Assembly (NCBI GenBank): GCA_030018355.1
Contig: JASEFN010000003.1
Coordinates: 209,939 to 273,938, forward strand
Direction: 5' to 3'
DNA length: 64,000 nt
DNA from: Caldisericia bacterium
GTDB taxonomy: Bacteria > Caldisericota > Caldisericia > B22-G15
The notes under the pieces are model-generated. The model was not told the origin of the DNA. It saw only the letters and a program-made list of their open reading frames with translations, and ran no database searches. Positions 3,247 through 22,412 of the stretch are shown here, one piece after another (position 1 is the stretch's first letter; each line of letters starts with the position of its first letter). Both the position numbers and the translations under genes were made by a program.

Positions 3247-4160
3247 TTGCTGCTATAAATTCTTTCATATCACAAACAATAACATATGCTGTTGTATACA
3301 CATTAACTAGTCTTGGAATAGTGATTGCTGGAAGAGCAGGTATTTTTAATGTATCAGGAGAAGGTATAATGCTCGCTTCTGCTTCATTAGGTTTTATAGT
3401 TAGTTTCCTTTCACAAAATTCAATTTTAGGATTCATTGTCGGAGCAATTTTAGGTGGAATTTTTGGTTTAATTCTCTCTTCACTTCATGAAAGGTTTAAA
3501 GTAAATCAATTTGTTCTTGGTATTTCTCTTGTAATTTTAGGAACAGGACTTTCTGATCTATTTTATAAATTGATAATTGGAATAAGACTTACTGCACCAA
3601 GGGCGCCAAAGACACCAACAATTTCTATACCATTTTTAAATAAAGTTCCAATTATTTCTGCATTTTTAAATCAAGACATAATTGTTTACTTCCTTTACAT
3701 TGTAATTATTTTTGCATGGTGGTTTTATTACAAAACAAAAATTGGTCTTGAAACAAGAGCAATTGGAGAAAATCCCAAGGCAGCAGATGTTGTTGGTGTT
3801 AATGTAACAAGAAGAAGAATTTTATCAACAACAATTGGTTCAATTTTAATTGGAATTTCTGGTGCATATTTACCAATAGTTATTACTGGAACATACACTC
3901 CTGATATTTCAGCAGGTAGGGGTTTTATGGCTGTAGGTATTGCAATATTTGCAAGTTGGAGACCTCAAAGAGCAATTCTTGGTGGATTTTTATTTGCTGC
4001 AATTGAAGTTTTAGCATTTAGATTACAGGTACTATCCCAAAGAATTCCATATCAATTTTTCTTAATGCTTCCATTTATTTCAGTTTTACTTGTAATGATG
4101 TTATTTAAGAAACAAATTGAATTTCCAGCATCAGTTGGTAAACCTTACAGTAGAGAGTAG
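3243..4160 (+). CDS. BMP-type ABC importer permease, second subunit
   Basis: This 305-residue membrane protein is of the YufQ-like permease type. It shows the characteristic FNVSGEGIMLASA tract near residue 38, a variant of the family's 'NIGIEGIML' motif. The ATPase-contact loop IGLETRAIGENPKAADVVG lies around residue 170. An in-frame AGGAGG (3227-3232) lies upstream within the preceding gene, at good spacing from the ATG. It ends the operon and abuts the convergent HD-protein gene with no bases between, so no separate terminator is present. The parallel copy is at 35924-36859. Confidence 0.88.
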   Translation: MIAAINSFISQTITYAVVYTLTSLGIVIAGRAGIFNVSGEGIMLASASLGFIVSFLSQNSILGFIVGAILGGIFGLILSSLHERFKVNQFVLGISLVILGTGLSDLFYKLIIGIRLTAPRAPKTPTISIPFLNKVPIISAFLNQDIIVYFLYIVIIFAWWFYYKTKIGLETRAIGENPKAADVVGVNVTRRRILSTTIGSILIGISGAYLPIVITGTYTPDISAGRGFMAVGIAIFASWRPQRAILGGFLFAAIEVLAFRLQVLSQRIPYQFFLMLPFISVLLVMMLFKKQIEFPASVGKPYSRE

Positions 4161-5840
4161 TTAAATTATTAATTTGATTTTGTCACCTTTCTTTAATTTT
4201 GTTATATGAATTAAATTTCTATTTTTACTTAATGGAAAAATTAAATCTCCTTCTCTTGTCAATTTGCCAATAAAATACAAATTTAATTTATCAATTTCTT
4301 TTTCATTATTATTAATTGGAATTTTCAAAATTTTATTATTATTTAATTTTATAATTGCTTTATCATAATTTATAATTATATCTTTTATTTCATAATATCT
4401 TTCTTTAGGAACCTTATTTGAATACTTTACTTTACCAATAAATTTTGGAATTTTTTCTATATTTTTATATTTAAAAAGATCAAAATTATATTGAATAATT
4501 CTTGATATTGTTAATGGTTTTTTAAGAAAAACTTCGAAGGCAAGTTCATTTATATTAAACTTTTTCTTTTTCATCAAATCTATGAGATATTTAGAGAATT
4601 TGGATATTGAAGGAGGTCTTATTGGAGAAAGAGTTTTCATTAAAAATTTTTCTATATTATTTAAATTAAATTCATTTTTTTCAAATTTTTTTAAATAATT
4701 TATCCTTGACTCTAATTTTTTTAGTTCCTTTATTTTATTTTCTATTTCTTTGACTTTGCCACCTTTTTTTAGATTCTTTATATGTTTTTTTACCCCTTTA
4801 ATTTTTATTTTAAGTTCATTTAACTCATTAAATCTTCCATAATTTATAATTTCTTGAGTCCCTTTTACCATATCTTGAAAAGTTAAATCAATGTCTTCTG
4901 GTATTTTAACAAAAATTGTTTTTAAAATTTTCTCTGGATTTAATGGATAAAAATATTTTTTCTTTGTTTTTTCTATATTTATTTCATCTACAAAATTTCC
5001 ATCAATACTATTGATTTTTAAAAATAATTTATCAACCCCTTTTCCAACTATATAATATTCATAATCCTCAACTTCAAAAATAAGATTTCCAAAAGAAAGA
5101 GTCTCTTCAATTAATTTTTTAAATCCCTTTTTTGTTCTTAAAAATTTTGTTTCAACATCAAAAATAGAATTTGGTGGTTCAATTCCAAAATAAAAAAAGT
5201 CAAAGAGAATTGTTTTAAATATTGAAGAAACTGCCCTTGAGTGTGTATATAAATTTATATCATTTGCACCCTTTCTTGTTTCAGATAAGGCATTTTCCAT
5301 AAAAAACTTTGATATTTTAAAAATTTCTTCTCTATTTAAGTTAAATATATAATAATCTAATAAATTTAAAAATTTTATTCTGAGCAAATCAATTTTTTTG
5401 AGTTCTAATTTTTTAAGATTTAAGAAAAAATCAGAAATATAAACTGAATAAAATGGTTGTTTTCCTCTATTTGGTGGATTTGATGAATCTAACCTATCAC
5501 ATATTTGTAGCATCTTTATAAAAAAGTTTTTGTCAAATCTTTTACATTTATCAATATATTTACATCTTTCACATCCATGATGAGAACAGATAAAATTTAT
5601 TGGTGATATATCTTCTAATAGATCTGAAAAAGAAAAAAAGATTTTATTTAATGGTGTTCTTAAAAATTTATTTAGATTTTCTGGAATTTTATCCTCAAGA
5701 ATAAGAATTGCATGTTGATCTTTTACATTTAAATCTCTATCTTTTGAAATTAAAAAATGAGATGAAATTTTTCCTATATCGTGAAAAAAAGATGAGATTT
5801 CAAGATATTTAATGAATTCACTTAAATTTTTTATATCCAT
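4161..5840 (-). CDS. Unrecognised HD-domain protein with Cys cluster and Cas10-like motifs
   Basis: I cannot assign this 559-residue protein to a named family. The N-terminus has an HD metal-dependent phosphohydrolase pattern: HDIGK (H20, D21), H43, a His pair (H87, H88) and D115. A four-cysteine cluster (C85, C90, C93, C99) is interleaved with the His pair and could bind zinc. Around residues 187-206 the stretch TRKGANDINLYTHSRAV recalls the 'ND.SL..HS' segment of Cas10/Cmr2-type proteins. Residues about 338-390 are a Lys/Glu-rich coiled coil, and the C-terminus is beta-rich. No GGDD palm motif and no helicase are present. The ATG lies 6 bases past the tmRNA CCA end with no Shine-Dalgarno. 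No cas genes or CRISPR are nearby. The open frame is intact and full length, so the gene is real; its function is unknown. Confidence 0.8.
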   Translation of the reverse strand: MDIKNLSEFIKYLEISSFFHDIGKISSHFLISKDRDLNVKDQHAILILEDKIPENLNKFLRTPLNKIFFSFSDLLEDISPINFICSHHGCERCKYIDKCKRFDKNFFIKMLQICDRLDSSNPPNRGKQPFYSVYISDFFLNLKKLELKKIDLLRIKFLNLLDYYIFNLNREEIFKISKFFMENALSETRKGANDINLYTHSRAVSSIFKTILFDFFYFGIEPPNSIFDVETKFLRTKKGFKKLIEETLSFGNLIFEVEDYEYYIVGKGVDKLFLKINSIDGNFVDEINIEKTKKKYFYPLNPEKILKTIFVKIPEDIDLTFQDMVKGTQEIINYGRFNELNELKIKIKGVKKHIKNLKKGGKVKEIENKIKELKKLESRINYLKKFEKNEFNLNNIEKFLMKTLSPIRPPSISKFSKYLIDLMKKKKFNINELAFEVFLKKPLTISRIIQYNFDLFKYKNIEKIPKFIGKVKYSNKVPKERYYEIKDIIINYDKAIIKLNNNKILKIPINNNEKEIDKLNLYFIGKLTREGDLIFPLSKNRNLIHITKLKKGDKIKLII

Positions 5841-5846
5841 TTATTT

Positions 5847-6200
5847 TGGTGGAGGCGGCGGGAATTGAACCCGCGTCCATGGAATCTCAGTTTAAACCTT
5901 CTACAGGTTTAGCCTGTTTTTTCTTTCTCCTCCTCTCTCTTCTGAACAGGCACAGAAGAGAGAAGCGTATCCTCATTTCTTTTTACCTTTATCCCTGAGG
6001 ATGAGGATAAAGGCGAGTCTCCTTTTCGCCTCAGTTTGAGAGACCAAGGAGACAAGAATCTCTCAAACTGGCAGTAGACCTTATGCTACTGCAAAAGCAT
6101 AATTTGTGTTGGCATTTTAAATCTTTTGAGAGTTTTAGGGTCCTCTCAAACCCACCTGCTGGTTTAAACCTCCATTCCATGTCGAACTCCTTTCGCCCCC
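5847..6200 (-). ncRNA. ssrA: tmRNA
   Basis: tmRNA rescues stalled ribosomes and tags their unfinished peptides. On the minus strand the 5' end GGGGGCG (6194-6200) pairs with CGCCTCC before the discriminator A and encoded CCA (end at 5847), forming the alanine tRNA-like acceptor stem. The 5' arm continues AAAGGAGTTCGACA and the 3' arm contains GGGTTCAATTCCCG, both typical of one-piece tmRNA. The total is 354 nt. The tag frame lies at 6081-6113. GC content is clearly higher than in the surrounding genes. It sits 10 bases after deoB and 6 bases before the HD-protein gene on the same strand. Confidence 0.96.
6081..6113 (-). other. tmRNA proteolysis-tag reading frame (ANTNYAFAVA)
   Basis: After GATTTAAAAT on the minus strand the resume codon GCC starts a 10-codon frame ending in TAA, encoding ANTNYAFAVA. 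The AN start and the hydrophobic C-terminus fit known tags. The last three residues are AVA instead of the common LAA. Confidence 0.88.
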
Positions 6201-6209
6201 GCTTTATTT

Positions 6210-6218
6210 ATTATACCA
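6210..6218 (-). promoter_or_regulatory. Extended -10 promoter of ssrA
   Basis: On the minus strand TGG is followed by TATAAT (plus-strand 6210-6215), an extended -10 element ending 10 bases before the mature tmRNA 5' end. The -10 box overlaps the deoB stop codon. No good -35 hexamer is seen at 16-18 bp. Confidence 0.65.
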
Positions 6219-7368
6219 TAATTTTTTTCAAAAAAGAGTTGCCATATTTTGTCTTTAAACCAAAAATATCTCCTATTGTTGCTCCCAAATCTGAAAATTT
6301 ATTAATATTAATATAATTGTCTTTTTTAATACTCTTTCCATATATAAAAATTGGGACATTCTCTCTTGTGTGATCTGTATGTTTTAAAAATGTTGGATCA
6401 TTACCATGATCTGCTGTTATTATTAAAATATCTTCATCTTTTAACCATCTTAAATAATTTCCAAGAAATCCATCAAATTCAAGAAGTGCATTTGCAAAAC
6501 CCCACAAATCTCTTCTATGTCCATAATTCATATCAAAATCAACAAGATTTGTAAAAATTATAGAGTAATCATTTTTTTCTATTGTTATCTTTAAAAGTTG
6601 AGCCATATTTTCAGTGTTGTTTTCAATGTGGATTGTATCTGTAAAACCTCTTTTTGCAAAAATATCATAAACTTTTCCAATTCCAAGAGTTTTATAACCA
6701 TTTTTAATCATAATATCTAAAAGAGTATCTTCTGGTGGTTCAAGTGAATAATCTTTTCTATCAGGTGTTCTATAAAATTTACCAACTTCTCCTGCAAATG
6801 GTCTTGCTATAACTCTTGCAACAGCGTGTTCACCTTTTAATATCTCTCTTGCAATTTCACACATTTTATATAGTTCATTTAAAGGAATAACATCTATGTG
6901 TGCTGCTATTTGAAAAACAGAGTCAGCAGAAGTATAAACAATTGGATAGCCAGTTTTTATATGTTCTTCACCTAATTTTTTTATAATTTCTGTTCCAGAT
7001 GCAGGTTTATTCCATAATACCTTTCTTTTTATTCTTTTTTCAAATTCTTTTATAATTTCATCTGGAAATCCATCTGGGTAAACTGGAAAAGGTTTTGATA
7101 ATTTTACTCCCATAAGTTCCCAATGTCCTGTTGTTGTGTCTTTTCCGGGAGATTCCTCTTCTAAAACACCAAAACTCGTTTCTGTTTTATGATTTAAATT
7201 ATAAAGTAAATTTAATAAACCAAAATTTGTTAAATTTGGAAATTTTATTCCCGTTTTTTCAATTACATGTAGTAAAGTATTACTATTTTCATCTCCATAA
7301 CTTTTTGCATCTTTTGCACCACCAATACCTACTCCATCAAGAATTACTAAAATCACTCTTTTTATCAT
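6211..7368 (-). CDS. deoB: Phosphopentomutase
   Basis: The enzyme interconverts ribose-1-phosphate or deoxyribose-1-phosphate with the 5-phosphates in nucleoside breakdown. The 385-residue chain has the alkaline-phosphatase-superfamily metalloenzyme layout. It begins IKRVILVILDGVGIGG with the metal-binding Asp at residue 11, has DTTTGHWELMG near residues 77-87 containing the phosphorylated Thr, and TADHGNDPTFLKHTDHTRE near residues 318-336 with the C-terminal metal ligands. GGAGG precedes the ATG. The start overlaps the recombinase gene by 32 bp. Its presence fits with the nucleoside-type BMP importers at both ends of the left half of the window. Confidence 0.95.
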   Translation of the reverse strand: MIKRVILVILDGVGIGGAKDAKSYGDENSNTLLHVIEKTGIKFPNLTNFGLLNLLYNLNHKTETSFGVLEEESPGKDTTTGHWELMGVKLSKPFPVYPDGFPDEIIKEFEKRIKRKVLWNKPASGTEIIKKLGEEHIKTGYPIVYTSADSVFQIAAHIDVIPLNELYKMCEIAREILKGEHAVARVIARPFAGEVGKFYRTPDRKDYSLEPPEDTLLDIMIKNGYKTLGIGKVYDIFAKRGFTDTIHIENNTENMAQLLKITIEKNDYSIIFTNLVDFDMNYGHRRDLWGFANALLEFDGFLGNYLRWLKDEDILIITADHGNDPTFLKHTDHTRENVPIFIYGKSIKKDNYININKFSDLGATIGDIFGLKTKYGNSFLKKIMV

Positions 7369-8260
7369 TTTTCCTCCACAAAGGATGTGTGTTTAAATAT
7401 ATTTCTCTCAAATAATCTTTTGTGAGATGAGTATAAATTTGTGTTGTTGATATATCAACATGACCTAAAAGTTCTTGAACACTTCTTAAATCTGCACCTC
7501 TTTCAAGAAGGTGTGTTGCAAATGAATGCCTTAACATATGAGGATGAACCCTTTTCTTTAGTTTTGCTTTTTTTGAATATCTTTTTAATATGTTGTTTAT
7601 ATGCTGCCTTAATAATTTTTCACCTTTTTTATTTATAAACAAAAACTCACTCTCTATTTTTAATTTTTTTCTCTCCTCAAGATAATCAACTATATAAGTT
7701 TTTGCTAATTCTCCAAATGGGACAATTCTTTCTTTACTTCCTTTTCCAAAACATTTTAAATAATTATTTTCAAAATCAAGATCAGAAACCTTTAAATTTA
7801 TAATTTCCGAAACCCTTAAACCAGAACTATATAAAAGTTCAACAATTGCTCTGTCTCTTTTTCCTTTTAAGGTTTTATTATCTATTACATTGATTAATTT
7901 TTCTATTTCTTCAACTGTTAACACTTGAGGAAGTTTTTTCTCATTTTTTGGAAAAACTAAATCTTGAGTTGGATCTGTTAGAATTAACTCTTCTCTAATT
8001 AAAAATTTATAAAAAGATCTTATTGCAGATATTTTTCTTCTCAATGAAGATGGTTTTAGTTTCTTTTTTGAAAGAAAAATTAAATAATTAAAGGCATCCT
8101 TCTTATCAATTTCATAAATATCTTTTTTTATTAACTCAAGATATTCTTTAAAATCATCAAGATCATTTTTATAAGATAAAATTGTATTTTTAGAAAATTC
8201 TTTTTCAAATTCAAGATATGAAATGAATGTTTCAAATAGATCTAATGTTTTCATAGGCAT
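7337..8260 (-). CDS. Tyrosine site-specific recombinase, XerC/XerD type
   Basis: This 307-residue integrase-family protein is likely the chromosome-dimer resolution recombinase. It has an N-terminal SAM-like DNA-binding domain (FETFISYLEFEKEFSKNT) and a C-terminal catalytic domain. The full catalytic set is visible: R149 (SSGLRVSEI), K173 (FGKGSKER), H241 and R244 (HMLRHSF), H267 (LLGHVDI) and the nucleophile Y276 (TQIYTHL). Two start codons (MPM) are possible; the first overlaps the Nudix gene by 29 bp. Its position in a housekeeping run, with no phage genes nearby, favours a Xer role over a mobile element. A choice between XerC, XerD or a single-recombinase XerH-like system cannot be made here. 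Confidence 0.9.
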   Translation of the reverse strand: MPMKTLDLFETFISYLEFEKEFSKNTILSYKNDLDDFKEYLELIKKDIYEIDKKDAFNYLIFLSKKKLKPSSLRRKISAIRSFYKFLIREELILTDPTQDLVFPKNEKKLPQVLTVEEIEKLINVIDNKTLKGKRDRAIVELLYSSGLRVSEIINLKVSDLDFENNYLKCFGKGSKERIVPFGELAKTYIVDYLEERKKLKIESEFLFINKKGEKLLRQHINNILKRYSKKAKLKKRVHPHMLRHSFATHLLERGADLRSVQELLGHVDISTTQIYTHLTKDYLREIYLNTHPLWRKNDKKSDFSNS

Positions 8261-10224: not shown

Positions 10225-11454
10225 TTAAAATTTAACATGTTTTCTTATATCATTTATATCAAGATTTATATAATTTGGTTCACCTGTACTTTTAATTGCA
10301 GATTCAATATCTTTTAATCCATTACCTGAAACTATTACAACAATTTTTTCGTTTTCATCTATTTTTCCTTCTTTTTTCATTTTAATTAAGCCAGCAAGGG
10401 GTGTTACGCCAGCAGGTTCACCAAATATGCCTGTAAGTTTTCCAAGAAGTGGTATTGCACTAAGAATTTCTTCATCAGAAACAGAAATAAAATTTCCATT
10501 ATATTCTCTTGCAAGTTTCAAGGCCATATTTCCATTTCTTGGATATCCTACACATATTGAATCTGCGACTGTTTTTGGATTATCAATTGGTTCAACTCTC
10601 TCTTTATTTTCAATAAATGCTTTAACAATAGGAGATGCACCCTCTGCTTGTACCCCAATTACTTGAGGAATTTTATTAATCAAGTTTAATTTATATAAAT
10701 CATAAAAACCTTTATAAACTCCACTATAAATAACTCCATCACCAACAGAAACAAAAATTTTATCTGGCACTTCAAAATTCATTTGTTCCCATATTTCAAA
10801 AGAGACACTTTTCTTACCTTCAATTGTATATGGATTATAAGCGGTATTTCTATTATACCAGCCAAACTCATCACTTGCTTTAATGCAAAGATCAAAACAT
10901 TCATCATAACTTCCCTTTACAGCAAAAACATTTGCACCAAAAGCAAGAAGTTGTGCAATTTTTGCTTTTGGAGCAGTTTCTGGAACAAAAATATATGTTT
11001 TTATTCCAACACTTGCTGCAATTCCTGCAAGAGATGATGCTGCATTTCCTGTTGATGCTGTTGTAATTGAGTTAAACCCAAGTTCCATTGCTTTTTTAAC
11101 AACTATAAAAGATGCTCTATCTTTAAAGGAGGCTGTTGGGTTTCTACCGTCATCTTTAATCAATAAGTTGTTAAGTTTAAGATATTCATTTAATCTTTTT
11201 GATTTATAAAGTGGAGTCATTCCAACATTTAGAGGTGGAGAGTTTTGTATATCTTCTATTGGAAAAAGTTCATGGTATCTTAAAATATTGTTTGGTCTAT
11301 CTTTTAAGTTTTCTTTTTTGAAGTTTAAATTTTTATAATCAAGTTCTACAAAAAGAATTCCATCTTTTCCGCACTTTGGGCAAGTATATTTTACTTCACT
11401 TTCTTCATATTCACTTCCGCAAAGAATACATTTTAAAAATTTAATTTTTTTCAT
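10225..11454 (-). CDS. thrC: Threonine synthase
   Basis: The enzyme converts O-phosphohomoserine to threonine using pyridoxal phosphate. The 409-residue chain has an N-terminal zinc-ribbon-like segment (CILCG near residue 10 and CPKCG near 25) found in the archaeal-type/short bacterial branch. The PLP lysine lies in NPTASFKDRAS near residue 112. The phosphate-binding loop STGNAASS lies near 140, and GNGLKD near the C-terminus. A TATAAT box ends 6 bases before the ATG, so the transcript may be leaderless. The start lies 7 bases after the MFS stop. Confidence 0.93.
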   Translation of the reverse strand: MKKIKFLKCILCGSEYEESEVKYTCPKCGKDGILFVELDYKNLNFKKENLKDRPNNILRYHELFPIEDIQNSPPLNVGMTPLYKSKRLNEYLKLNNLLIKDDGRNPTASFKDRASFIVVKKAMELGFNSITTASTGNAASSLAGIAASVGIKTYIFVPETAPKAKIAQLLAFGANVFAVKGSYDECFDLCIKASDEFGWYNRNTAYNPYTIEGKKSVSFEIWEQMNFEVPDKIFVSVGDGVIYSGVYKGFYDLYKLNLINKIPQVIGVQAEGASPIVKAFIENKERVEPIDNPKTVADSICVGYPRNGNMALKLAREYNGNFISVSDEEILSAIPLLGKLTGIFGEPAGVTPLAGLIKMKKEGKIDENEKIVVIVSGNGLKDIESAIKSTGEPNYINLDINDIRKHVKF

Positions 11455-12665: not shown

Positions 12666-13517
12666 TTAGTCTAAAAAGTAAAAATCAATATATGATGATA
12701 TTGTATTAATTTCGATAAAAATTTTATTTTTCCCTCCTTCCAAATAGTATATATTATGGTTTTTCTTTTTAAATCCTAAATCAATTAAATTAGATGTTAT
12801 ATTTTTTGATTTTAAATTCAATTCTACATTATAAATTTTTCTTAAACCAATTTTAATAAAAGATGGTTTAACATTTATTTTTATGAATAATTCATTTTGA
12901 TTTTTTGGTAATTTTATTTCAATAAATGAAGACTCCGAATTTAAAAAAAACTCTTTTAATAAAATATTTGAAAAATCAAGTTCATAATTTAATGATTTAC
13001 CTTTTATATTTAAATTTAAAATTTTATTCTCATTAACAATTAAATTGTATTCATCAGAATTATTAATATATCTTTTTATAACATTTTGTAATAAAAAGTA
13101 ATTGGTTTTATCTTTTAAAATTTCACTGTATAGGTAAATCTTTTTATATGATGTATAATCAAAAATAAAATCTTCATTTATTTTTTCACCAAATATTTTA
13201 AAATATCCTGACTCAATTTTTAAATTTATATTTAAAAGTTTATTTAAACTCTCTTTTTTAAATGTCTCAGAAAATAAAATTCTTTTTTCAAGAAAATTTG
13301 GATAAATGTAAAAATAAAAAATGGTTGCTATTAAAGTTATTATAAGAAGAATGAATTTTCCTCTTTTTAAAATTGAATTTAAAATTAAATAAAAAGAGAA
13401 AATTAGTATAAGTTGAATTTTATAAATTTTAAAAAAACTTAACAAATCAATGGTTATAAAAAAATAAAAAATTATAAAAATGAAAATAAAAAAGATTATT
13501 AATTTAATTTTTTTCAC
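12666..13517 (-). CDS. Unrecognised membrane-anchored protein
   Basis: I recognise no family. The 283-residue protein has three hydrophobic helices in the first 75 residues, rich in Ile/Phe, followed by about 200 residues of beta-rich soluble sequence with much Lys, Asn, Ile and Glu (for example NIKGKSLNYELDFSNILL). That layout suggests an exported or periplasm-facing domain on a membrane anchor. The first ATG overlaps the stop of the GTPase gene by 4 bp, so it is probably translated with it. Codon use matches its neighbours, and there is no sign of decay. Confidence 0.7.
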   Translation of the reverse strand: MKKIKLIIFFIFIFIIFYFFITIDLLSFFKIYKIQLILIFSFYLILNSILKRGKFILLIITLIATIFYFYIYPNFLEKRILFSETFKKESLNKLLNINLKIESGYFKIFGEKINEDFIFDYTSYKKIYLYSEILKDKTNYFLLQNVIKRYINNSDEYNLIVNENKILNLNIKGKSLNYELDFSNILLKEFFLNSESSFIEIKLPKNQNELFIKINVKPSFIKIGLRKIYNVELNLKSKNITSNLIDLGFKKKNHNIYYLEGGKNKIFIEINTISSYIDFYFLD

Positions 13518-14497
13518 TTCGTATGGAACTCAACAATGTCTTTATCTTGTAATATATAATCTCTATTTACTTGTTGACCTTCAAATCTACTTGAGCCCCA
13601 AAGTCGAGCATATTTTAAATTTTTTGCAATCTCTTTATGTAATTTATAAGCAGCATCTAAAACAGTTGATCCCTTTTTTAAAATTAGCGGATCTGTCATA
13701 TCAGGTGGTTTACCAGGTTCTTTTGTATAAACTCTTATAATATTTAATCCTTCAAAGATTTTTTTCATAACAACTTCAATATTTATTATTGATTCACATG
13801 ACCCAAAAGTAATAGGAATAGAAGTATTTAAATTTTTTAAAATATTATCAATTTCATCTTGAGTTAATAAATCAGATTTATTAATAAAAATTAATCCTCT
13901 TTTATTTAATGGACCAAAGAGATGATCTTCGCTTAATCCCTCACCAAGAATTTTTATTCCTTTATCACTAAGAATTTTTAAAATTTTATCTAATTCTTCA
14001 TTTAAATTCATTTCAAATGATAAGACTATTAAAATAAGATCTGAATTTCTAATAATGTCAAAAATTGTATAATCACTATCTTGATCAATTGGTGGTAGAT
14101 CAATAAATTGAATTTTTATATCCTCAAAAGGAACCATACCCACAACGGGTGTTTTTGTTGTAAAAGGGTAATCCCCTATTTCAGATGGAACAGAGGATAG
14201 AAGATAAAAAAGTGTTGATTTTCCTGAATTTGGTGGACCAACAAGTGTAACTTGTCCTGCACCCTCTCTCTCAATATAAAAAGAACTTCTCTTACCTTTA
14301 TTTTTTCTTTGATATTCTAACTCTTCTTTTAATTTTGATATTTTTGCCTTAATCTCTGCTTGTAATTTATCTGTCCCTTTATGTTTTGGCATTATTGCAT
14401 ACATTTTTTTAAGAATTTCAATTTTTTCTTGAATTGTTTTTTTCTCTCTATATTCTCTTTCTAATTCATAAAATTGAGGTGGTAAATTAGCAGGCAT
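13514..14497 (-). CDS. OBG/DRG-family TGS GTPase
   Basis: A GTP-binding protein of the OBG-HflX-like/DRG type, about 327 residues. It starts MPANLPPQFYELE, the conserved N-terminus of this family, which fixes the start at 14497. A helical N-terminal region precedes the G domain: G1 GPPNSGKST (about 82-90), the switch tract YPFTTKTPV, G3 reading DLPP rather than DxxG, and G4 NKSD. The C-terminal 70 residues are a TGS domain (TKEPGKPPDMTDPLIL onward), which in relatives contacts RNA or ribosomes. The ATG is 8 bases from the encoded CCA of tRNA-Ser, with no Shine-Dalgarno, so it probably depends on the tRNA transcript. Confidence 0.87.
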   Translation of the reverse strand: MPANLPPQFYELEREYREKKTIQEKIEILKKMYAIMPKHKGTDKLQAEIKAKISKLKEELEYQRKNKGKRSSFYIEREGAGQVTLVGPPNSGKSTLFYLLSSVPSEIGDYPFTTKTPVVGMVPFEDIKIQFIDLPPIDQDSDYTIFDIIRNSDLILIVLSFEMNLNEELDKILKILSDKGIKILGEGLSEDHLFGPLNKRGLIFINKSDLLTQDEIDNILKNLNTSIPITFGSCESIINIEVVMKKIFEGLNIIRVYTKEPGKPPDMTDPLILKKGSTVLDAAYKLHKEIAKNLKYARLWGSSRFEGQQVNRDYILQDKDIVEFHTK

Positions 14498-14505
14498 ATA
14501 AAAAA

Positions 14506-14598
14506 TGGCGGATGGGGCGGGATTCGAACCCGCGAGGCAGGGTTTACCCACCTACCGCATTTCAAGTGCGGTGCCTTCAACCACTCGGCCACCCATCC
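14506..14598 (-). tRNA. tRNA-Ser (UGA)
   Basis: The minus-strand sequence folds as a class II tRNA. The acceptor is GGATGGG/CCCATCC with discriminator G and an encoded CCA. The D-loop region is GCCGAGTGGTTGAAGGC, the anticodon arm CCGCA-CTTGAAA-TGCGG gives anticodon TGA, and the T arm is GCGGG-TTCGAAT-CCCGC. A long variable arm (TAGGTGGGTAAACCCTGCCTC) lies between, as expected for serine. GC is about 63% by hand count against under 30% around it. No promoter is visible between ferredoxin and the tRNA. Confidence 0.97.
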
Positions 14599-20304: not shown

Positions 20305-21513
20305 TTATTCAAAATAATTTTCAACTATTTTCATTATACTATATTTTATGGCTTCATAAAAAAGTCCACCTTGTAGATACCCAATATAAGGCTCTTTTAG
20401 TGGTGCATCAAAAGAAAATTCGATAGATGAGCCTTGTGTAAATGTTCCTGCTGCCATAATTACTTCATAATTGAAGAAATCTTCTTTTATTGGTTCTAAA
20501 AAAACATCTGAATCTATTGGTGAAAATTTTTGAACAAGTTGTGCAAATTTTATTAATTTATCTCTACTTTCAAATTTGATTCCAAGAAGTGTATCTCCTC
20601 TTTTTTCATACCATTGCGGGAAAACCTCAAAATTATATTTTTTTAATAAATTTGATGCAAATGTTATTCCTTTAAGTGTTTCACATACAATATGAGGTGC
20701 AAAATATAAACCTAAATAAGCAAATCTTTTAAAGTTTATTTGAGCACCTCCATATTTTCCAATGCCAGGAGATGTTAAAAGAGAAGCACATTTTTCAATA
20801 AGTTTACCTTTTCCAGCAATATAACCTCCAAATGGCGTTATTCCTCCTCCAGGATTTTTTGTCATTGAGCCAGCAATAAGATCTGCTCCATATGTGGTTG
20901 GTTCTTTTTCTTCAACAAATTCACCATAACAATTATCAACAAAAACTATAATATCTTCCTTTATTTCTCTAATTTTTTTAATATATTCACCAATCTCTTC
21001 ATTTGTTAAAGTTCTTCTATTTCCACTATAACCCATAGATTTTTGAATAAAAACCATCTTTGTTTTTTTAGAAATAACTTTTTTTAAATCTTGTGGATTA
21101 TTTATTAAATCAATTTCTTTGTAAAGAACATTCATATCTTTTAATGAAAGAGGAGATTTTTTAATTCCAATAATTCTTTGTATTGTGTCGTATGGTTCTC
21201 CTGTTATTGTTAAAAGCTCATCATCGGGTTTTAATAAGGAGAATAGAACAATAGAAATTGCATGAGATCCAGATGAAATTTGAGATCTAACAAGAGAATC
21301 TTCAGCATCAAAGACTTTAGCAAATACTCTTTCAAGTTTTTCTCTTCCAATATCACCAAATCCATAACCAGTTGAATCACAAAAATCGCTCTCTCTAACC
21401 TTAAATTCTCTAAATGCTTCAATCACCTTTATAAAATTTTTTTCTTTTATTTTTTCATATTCTTTTATCTTATTTTGAATTTCATCTTCAACCTTTTTTA
21501 TGATATCTTCCAT
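20305..21513 (-). CDS. Methionine gamma-lyase-like PLP enzyme ('aluminium resistance' family)
   Basis: A 402-residue PLP-dependent fold-type I protein of the family historically called aluminium resistance protein, widespread in Firmicutes-like genomes and usually next to miaA, as here. Landmarks: N-terminal DSTGYGFGD..REKLE..FA, the SSGSHAI loop (about 83-89), the Asp in VFVDNCYGEF, and the presumed PLP Lys in AGSMTKNPGGGI (about 200-211). The true reaction of the family is poorly established; cleavage of sulfur amino acids is inferred. It overlaps the end of miaA by 16 bp. Confidence 0.87.
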   Translation of the reverse strand: MEDIIKKVEDEIQNKIKEYEKIKEKNFIKVIEAFREFKVRESDFCDSTGYGFGDIGREKLERVFAKVFDAEDSLVRSQISSGSHAISIVLFSLLKPDDELLTITGEPYDTIQRIIGIKKSPLSLKDMNVLYKEIDLINNPQDLKKVISKKTKMVFIQKSMGYSGNRRTLTNEEIGEYIKKIREIKEDIIVFVDNCYGEFVEEKEPTTYGADLIAGSMTKNPGGGITPFGGYIAGKGKLIEKCASLLTSPGIGKYGGAQINFKRFAYLGLYFAPHIVCETLKGITFASNLLKKYNFEVFPQWYEKRGDTLLGIKFESRDKLIKFAQLVQKFSPIDSDVFLEPIKEDFFNYEVIMAAGTFTQGSSIEFSFDAPLKEPYIGYLQGGLFYEAIKYSIMKIVENYFE

Positions 21514-22412
21514 CTATTCCTCACAATTTCTAAAATCTCATCAACAACTTTTTCACTATCTTTATTCTCAATATTAATAAAAATTATATCTTTTTCTTTT
21601 CTTAACCATATAATCTGTTTTCTTGCATATTCTTTTGTTTTTTTAATAATCTCATTTTTACATGTTGTAATATTTATTTCTCCTTTTAAATATTTTAAAA
21701 CTTCTTCATAACCTATTGCTTTAATTGATGTTTTGGAAAAACCAAATTTTTCATTTATATATTTAACTTCTTCAACAAAACCTCTTTCAAACATTCTTTC
21801 AACTCTATCTTTTATTTTCTCATAAAGAAGTTTTCTATCCATTATTAAGGCAATTTTTATTGAATCAAATCTTTCTATCATATTTTGAAAAGTTGAAAAA
21901 GGTTTATTGTAAATATAAAAAACTTCTAACGCTCTAACAATTCTCTTTTTATCATTTTTTGAGATTTTATTTGCATACTCTGGATCAACTCTTTTTAATT
22001 CTTCATAAAGAGAATCTAAGCCCTCTTTATTTACTCTTTCTAATAAATTTTTTCTTATTGTATCATCTTTTTCAGGTGGATCAAAATATAAAAGAGTTCT
22101 TAAATATAAGCCTGTTCCCCCAACAATTATTGGCATTTTTCCTTTATTTATAATCTCATCAATCTTTTTCAATGCAATCTCTTTATATAAGCCACTTGAA
22201 AACTCTTCATTTGGATCAATTATGTCAATAAGGTGATGAGGTATACCTTCCATCTCATCTTTTTTTATTTTATTTGTTCCAATATTCATATATTTATACA
22301 CTTGAAAGGCATCACAAGAGATAATTTCTCCATTAATTTTTTTTGCGAGTTTTACTCCTATTTCACTTTTTCCTACTCCTGTAGGACCTCCAATATATAT
22401 TACCTTTTTCAT
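21498..22412 (-). CDS. miaA: tRNA dimethylallyltransferase
   Basis: The enzyme adds an isopentenyl group to A37 of tRNAs reading UNN codons, which includes the tRNA-Ser in this window. The 304-residue chain has the P-loop GPTGVGKSE (about 9-17), DAFQVYKYMNIGTNK (about 34-48), the GGTGLYL stretch (about 98-104) and the C-terminal tract YARKQIIWLRKE (about 267-278) that contacts tRNA. Its ATG is only 15 bp from the divergent uvrC ATG, with no Shine-Dalgarno, and the spacer is essentially a TTATAA core. The mRNA is therefore probably leaderless. Confidence 0.94.
   Translation of the reverse strand: MKKVIYIGGPTGVGKSEIGVKLAKKINGEIISCDAFQVYKYMNIGTNKIKKDEMEGIPHHLIDIIDPNEEFSSGLYKEIALKKIDEIINKGKMPIIVGGTGLYLRTLLYFDPPEKDDTIRKNLLERVNKEGLDSLYEELKRVDPEYANKISKNDKKRIVRALEVFYIYNKPFSTFQNMIERFDSIKIALIMDRKLLYEKIKDRVERMFERGFVEEVKYINEKFGFSKTSIKAIGYEEVLKYLKGEINITTCKNEIIKKTKEYARKQIIWLRKEKDIIFINIENKDSEKVVDEILEIVRNRWKIS

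Follow-up and report, generated by a model that had tools for sequence, protein, structure and literature searches.

Organization of the ssrA-HD locus

The stretch of Caldisericia DNA analysed here, 64,000 nucleotides at its full length and hereafter the window, carries deoB, ssrA and a gene for an HD-domain protein on its minus strand (Table 1). ARAGORN and Rfam placed the tmRNA alike, and the Rfam match was full-length (model 1-374), with a tRNA-like domain and a tag ORF present. ssrA follows deoB at a distance of 10 nt, and an extended -10 element, TGGTATAAT, overlaps the deoB stop codon (6213..6211). The element lies upstream of ssrA in all five genomes compared as the window's family (G000, the window's own genome, and G001 to G004); it is a putative ssrA promoter and was absent from the list produced by a two-hexamer promoter scan. 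A sequence scan of positions 3900-7600 found no terminator-like sites on the minus strand. The coding part of the tag lies at window 6113-6081. Tags of the family (ANTNYAFAVA, ANTNYSYAVA and ANTNYAYAVA) end in AVA and those seen in family f7 in AYA, the usual tag end being LAA. Two tmRNA matches per genome scored over the cut-off in G041 (contigs C2 and C3) and G015 (C117 and C209), reflecting duplication or contamination.

Table 1. Features of the window at its two RNA-gene/coding-sequence junctions
Feature	Coordinates	Strand	Remarks
deoB (phosphopentomutase)	6211..7368	-	NF003766, 501 bits; upstream of ssrA
Extended -10, putative ssrA promoter	6210..6218	-	Consensus match only
ssrA (tmRNA)	5847..6200	-	ARAGORN; Rfam RF00023, 174 bits; tag ANTNYAFAVA; encoded CCA 5849..5847
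Spacer AAATAA, 6 nt	5841..5846	-	Proposed HD mRNA 5' leader and 3' maturation site
HD-domain protein, 559 aa	4161..5840	-	ATG 5840..5838; residues 4-221 resemble HD region of type III-C Cas10 (Csx11)
tRNA-Ser, second junction	14506..14598	-	ARAGORN
Obg-like GTPase, TGS domain	13514..14497	-	ATG 8 nt after tRNA-Ser CCA, no SD

A preliminary description of this DNA had held that AAATAA alone separates the CCA end of the tmRNA from the ATG of the HD gene, with neither a Shine-Dalgarno (SD) sequence nor a promoter between them. The gap is confirmed: the coordinates agree with it, and the HD start codon is forced because an in-frame stop codon (TAA) directly precedes the ATG, no ATG, GTG or TTG occurs in the next 40 codons, and the HD motif is invariant at residues 20-21. 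An alternative start codon was rejected on the first two of these grounds. The absence of an SD sequence was borne out for both the spacer and the tmRNA 3' end. The best -10-like hexamer able to start transcription in the gap matches TATAAT at two of six positions; a promoter was rejected on this basis for the 6-nt gaps, and this part of the description probably holds as well.

The HD protein

PADLOC matched the HD protein to Cas10c (1.2e-16), as it did 17 of 17 homologues, and TIGR02682 (Csx11) matched it at 8.9e-9, with 34 bits against a cut-off of 248.95 and coverage of model positions 13-230 of 1007 only. An N-terminal HD region and metal-ligand-type residues are common to the HD protein, Cas10 of type III-C (Csx11) and the Cas3'' HD nuclease. 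The HD protein differs from Cas10/Csx11, however, in its length of 559 aa, in the restriction of its match to that part of the model, and in the lack of a CRISPR-cas neighbourhood: no cas gene was matched at 1e-10 among the 10 neighbours scanned, and no CRISPR-like repeat array was found in the window. We did not file the protein as a Cas10 or CRISPR effector because it is too short, gave no match over the cut-off at full length and with the polymerase/cyclase region, and has neither cas genes among those neighbours nor an array in the window.

A Pfam scan of the protein gave no match, an HD-family profile run against solved structures returned chance matches only (E 1.5 and above), and no match was found in viral contigs; a contig search gave one distant HD match, in a Clostridia MAG. 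Residues H20, D21, H43, H87, H88 and D115 do not vary among the 17 homologues compared, which argues that the protein is likely an active metal-dependent hydrolase, presumably a nuclease or phosphohydrolase. At its far end the HD gene meets a convergent ABC permease gene stop-to-stop (4161 versus 4160). The gap to the convergent gene is 0 nt in G001, 2 nt in G003 and 7 nt in G004, where the neighbour is an RNase J gene.

Conservation of the ssrA-HD pair

Matches to the HD protein were found in 24 of the 61 genomes searched, and it is present in all five family genomes, the other four at 50-75% identity. In each of the five the HD gene lies immediately after ssrA, so that the co-occurrence by which the preliminary description had proposed to check the pairing was found throughout the family. 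The gap is 6 nt in G000 (AAATAA), G003 (AATTTG) and G004 (AATCTA); G004 belongs to another genus, and the 6-nt gap thus spans three species and two genera. We regard it as more than chance because it recurs across these species with different letters and because tight SD-less junctions recur elsewhere in G000. The gap measures 29 nt in G001 and G002, is SD-less there too, and contains TATAAT, which could be a promoter of the HD gene's own. G002 keeps the pair on a short contig, on which the gene upstream is not deoB.

RNA-gene/coding-sequence junctions across genomes

Junctions were defined by the longest ORF of at least 60 aa starting within 60 nt of the end of an RNA-gene array, and an SD sequence was scored as an exact match of at least 4 nt to AAGGAGGTGA within the spacer. 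All RNA genes were examined in G000 (46), G003 (44) and G018 (47), as were 42 of 43 in the distant control G058 and 32 of 35 in G004 (several at contig ends). Almost every RNA gene carries an encoded CCA (44 of 46 in G000). Eighteen of the 46 in G000 are followed by another RNA gene, which leaves 28 array ends: a coding sequence starts within 10 nt at nine of these, at 11-30 nt at eight and at 31-60 nt at one, with none within 60 nt at the other ten. The corresponding counts were 7, 11, 1 and 7 for the 26 array ends of G003 (the tmRNA junction, scored at 3 nt from a TTG before the ATG, being counted as within 10), and 7, 4, 3 and 7 for the 21 of G004. They were 3, 9, 3 and 12 for the 27 of G018, where one of the three closest (tRNA-Tyr, 1 nt) is spurious, its ORF continuing across the tRNA that follows. 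Among the 35 array ends of G058 the counts were 1, 5, 4 and 25, the sole junction within 10 nt being a 72-aa GTG ORF of doubtful reality. Fisher tests of G000 against G058, a control of one genome, gave p values of 0.003 (within 10 nt), 0.0005 (within 30 nt) and 0.04 (within 10 nt and SD-less); the difference from G018 (9/28 versus 3/27 within 10 nt) was not significant (p 0.10). The family genomes are related and do not count as independent trials.

Six of the nine closest junctions in G000 lack an SD sequence, and all six use ATG: tRNA(CAU)/tilS and tRNA-Arg/uvrA (5 nt each), tmRNA/HD and tRNA-Leu/PpiC-type isomerase (6 nt each), tRNA-Ser/Obg-like TGS GTPase (8 nt) and tRNA-Trp/secE (10 nt). 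At the remaining three, SD-like purines lie at the CCA or beside it (TGAGGTATTA, AGAGGTTTTA and AAAGGGGATT), as if their leader began at CCA. Several gaps are kept between genomes (partners in G003 and G004 being named by likeness of their first residues to scanned G000 proteins). Across three genomes they measure 5, 5 and 5 nt for tRNA-Arg/uvrA, 6, 6 and 6 nt for tmRNA/HD, and 10, 8 and 6 nt for tRNA-Trp/secE; across two they measure 5 and 5 nt for tRNA(CAU)/tilS and 6 and 6 nt for tRNA-Leu/PpiC-type. The tRNA with anticodon CAU that tilS follows after 5 nt (L098, L142) is, by its sequence features, presumably an elongator Met tRNA and not the Ile2 substrate of TilS. The tRNA-Ser junction is the second in the window; a start of the Obg-like GTPase at 14551, the mechanical first start, lies inside the tRNA and was rejected as not likely.

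Fifteen SD-less junctions from three genomes were read in all for matches to TATAAT. None of the 12 that were scored exceeded three of six positions, and the three read by eye included one CATAAT, in G004, too near the ATG to serve it. Because the best -10 hexamers, which fall in the acceptor arm and CCA, match at no more than three of six positions, a transcription start in the gap is unlikely on consensus grounds.

SD-less starts are not rare in the window. Among its 58 ORFs of at least 100 aa, an SD match of at least 4 nt was found at some start tried for 42 and at the first start for 31, leaving 16 with such a match at none of the starts tried. Several SD-less window ORFs overlap the preceding gene and can be translationally coupled; RNA-gene junctions cannot. 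TATAAT-like boxes placed about 12 nt ahead of the ATG, the layout of transcriptionally leaderless messages, were seen at window 10225-11454 and 21498-22412; the scan for -10 boxes near ATGs was run without a shuffle control, and these are leads only.

Candidate processing enzymes

RNase E/G was matched in none of 21 genomes, compared with 6 of 14 control genomes, and RNase Z (TIGR02651) scored over its cut-off in none of 31 genomes, compared with 9 of 14 controls; in tRNA punctuation of the mitochondrial type the 3' cut falls to tRNase Z. The single weak RNase Z match in G000 is an MBL nearest to Tm1679, another MBL. A 252-aa MBL of G018 was rejected as RNase Z, its best solved relatives being unnamed metal-dependent hydrolases; a search of the five family genomes, run without a positive control, returned nothing matching it. 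RNase Y scored over the cut-off in 21 of 21 genomes, but RNase Y is not known to cut tRNA or tmRNA 3' ends at CCA. An RNase J gene adjoins the HD gene in G004, as noted above. Cuts at this position are described in other bacteria: the RNase Z of T. maritima cuts just after a CCA that is encoded, and the CCA end is sometimes produced directly by RNase E (both in PMC7479834). In P. acnes, without an obvious RNase Z, cuts fall a few nucleotides after or inside CCA (PMC3848588).

Discussion

A model for expression of the HD gene

Our preferred explanation, which we consider reasonably probable, is that readthrough from ssrA followed by 3' maturation produces a near-leaderless HD mRNA, as part of a family-wide punctuation of transcripts by stable RNAs. 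ssrA and the HD gene would be transcribed together, as a single unit, from the extended -10 before ssrA; as no terminator is visible after the tmRNA, polymerase would continue past it into the HD gene. An endonucleolytic 3' maturation cut at or just after CCA would free the tmRNA and, in the same step, make an HD mRNA whose leader does not exceed 6 nt (AAAUAA-AUG), to be translated independently of an SD sequence. Throughout the family, mRNAs would be punctuated in this way by the 3' ends of tRNAs and tmRNA, the pair being a single instance. We infer each of these steps, cotranscription, cleavage and leaderless initiation, from the sequence. The earlier proposal that tmRNA maturation makes the 5' end of the HD mRNA is supported to this extent by the putative promoter before ssrA in five of five genomes, by the lack of a recognizable one for the 6-nt gap, and by the recurrence of the layout at tRNA genes.

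More tentatively, tRNA and tmRNA 3' maturation may be a general maker of near-leaderless 5' ends for housekeeping mRNAs (those of secE, uvrA, tilS, the PpiC-type protein, the Obg-like GTPase and the HD enzyme), through an endonuclease other than RNase E/G or a canonical RNase Z. Such a cut would tie the supply of these proteins to RNA maturation.

The best-surviving alternative is plain genome compaction, in which the short gaps carry no regulatory meaning. It is compatible with the processing model and holds that there is nothing beyond it, and in keeping with it many window genes overlap or touch and the RNA-gene arrays are dense. As the whole account we find it rather unlikely: gap lengths of 5 and 6 nt persist from one genus to another with changed letters, and compaction may explain the origin of the layout, yet the genes still need a route to expression.

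It is also conceivable that the precursor stays uncut before translation, the 30S subunit starting on the cotranscript beside the folded tmRNA, or the HD protein being made at a trickle. A cut cannot be read from sequence alone, little protein might suffice for an enzyme required at low dose, and the predicted precursor fold shows a paired acceptor arm and a weakly paired start codon. Ribosome dimensions, on the other hand, imply little space for the 30S footprint in the 5-6 nt between the folded acceptor stem and the AUG, and the same tight layout serves secE, uvrA and tilS, genes that need reliable expression; we consider this alternative improbable. To a promoter of the HD gene's own, lying inside ssrA and giving a leaderless primary transcript, we assign the same low probability. 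In some bacteria leaderless transcripts are widespread (PMC3848588), the 29-nt spacers of G001 and G002 contain TATAAT, and a -10-like box lies near the ATG of some other window genes; in G000, G003 and G004, however, the place of the -10 is taken by the GC-rich acceptor arm and CCA, with a best match of two of six.

Least probable, by a small step, is a joint function of ssrA and the HD enzyme, the latter being for instance a nuclease that clears non-stop mRNA or checks tmRNA, with selection for their co-expression: the pair is kept in five of five genomes while the protein has diverged to 50% identity, G002 retains it without deoB upstream, and the metal-ligand-type residues are invariant, but ssrA has a different partner in the sister family, no tmRNA was found in the 16 longer loci read around HD homologues from outside the family, and the tRNA junctions carry unrelated genes, mostly ordinary housekeeping ones. 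In that sister family, f3, a gene for an unrelated but conserved 197-aa membrane-like protein comes next at 8 of the 16 tmRNA loci examined (e.g. L041:895-1485); it is mostly preceded by purine-rich SD-like leaders of 11-20 nt, and the one member scanned has no Pfam or NCBIfam match. The 16 longer loci with outside HD homologues measure 7-20 kb and contain no tRNA either; the sister-family homologue adjoins radical SAM genes, such as one for a LipS2-type lipoyl synthase in G018. Because the f3 partner differs and no tmRNA was found in those 16 loci, the ssrA-HD link is best read as a shared promoter and shared processing. Of the coupling between rescue RNA and HD enzyme suggested in the preliminary description, the adjacency therefore stands and the functional tie is weakly supported; a tie specific to the window's family is possible.

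Comparison with known systems

If the processing model is correct, a mechanism regarded as typical of mitochondria operates in a bacterium, and maturation of stable RNAs, instead of promoters, can make leaderless messages. It would also open leaderless initiation and the 3' processing of tRNAs to direct genomic study in a lineage that has received little attention and in which neither RNase E/G nor a canonical RNase Z was recognized. Among the open-licence PMC papers listed by our searches, none reported bacterial near-leaderless mRNAs arising from tRNA or tmRNA maturation.

Leaderless mRNAs of Actinobacteria (P. acnes and S. coelicolor) were mapped to transcription start sites; their 5' ends coincide with the start codon or precede it by no more than 10 nt, as would be the case here (PMC3848588 and PMC4681348). 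At the HD junction the -10 box expected 7-12 nt before a 5' end near the ATG was not found, the best hexamer matching at two of six positions. No promoter is visible at the junctions described here; unlike the actinobacterial messages, theirs would therefore be made by RNA processing, if at all.

In E. coli, thrU-tufB is a tRNA-mRNA cotranscript whose long gap holds an SD sequence. The likeness would lie in an mRNA released from a tRNA precursor; the SD-less junctions described here, in contrast, span 5-10 nt.

A close anatomical parallel is the tRNA punctuation of mitochondrial transcripts that Ojala, Montoya and Attardi reportedly described in 1981. In both cases coding sequences lie directly against RNA genes, the mRNA 5' end would arise as the RNA is cut out, the leader is absent or a few nucleotides long, and there is no SD sequence. 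This anatomy, a coding sequence starting within a few nucleotides without an SD sequence, is found at 6 of the 28 array ends in G000. The present case differs from mitochondria in that the host is a bacterium, CCA is encoded, most genes are not beside a tRNA, SD-bearing genes are still common, and the cut is a predicted one.
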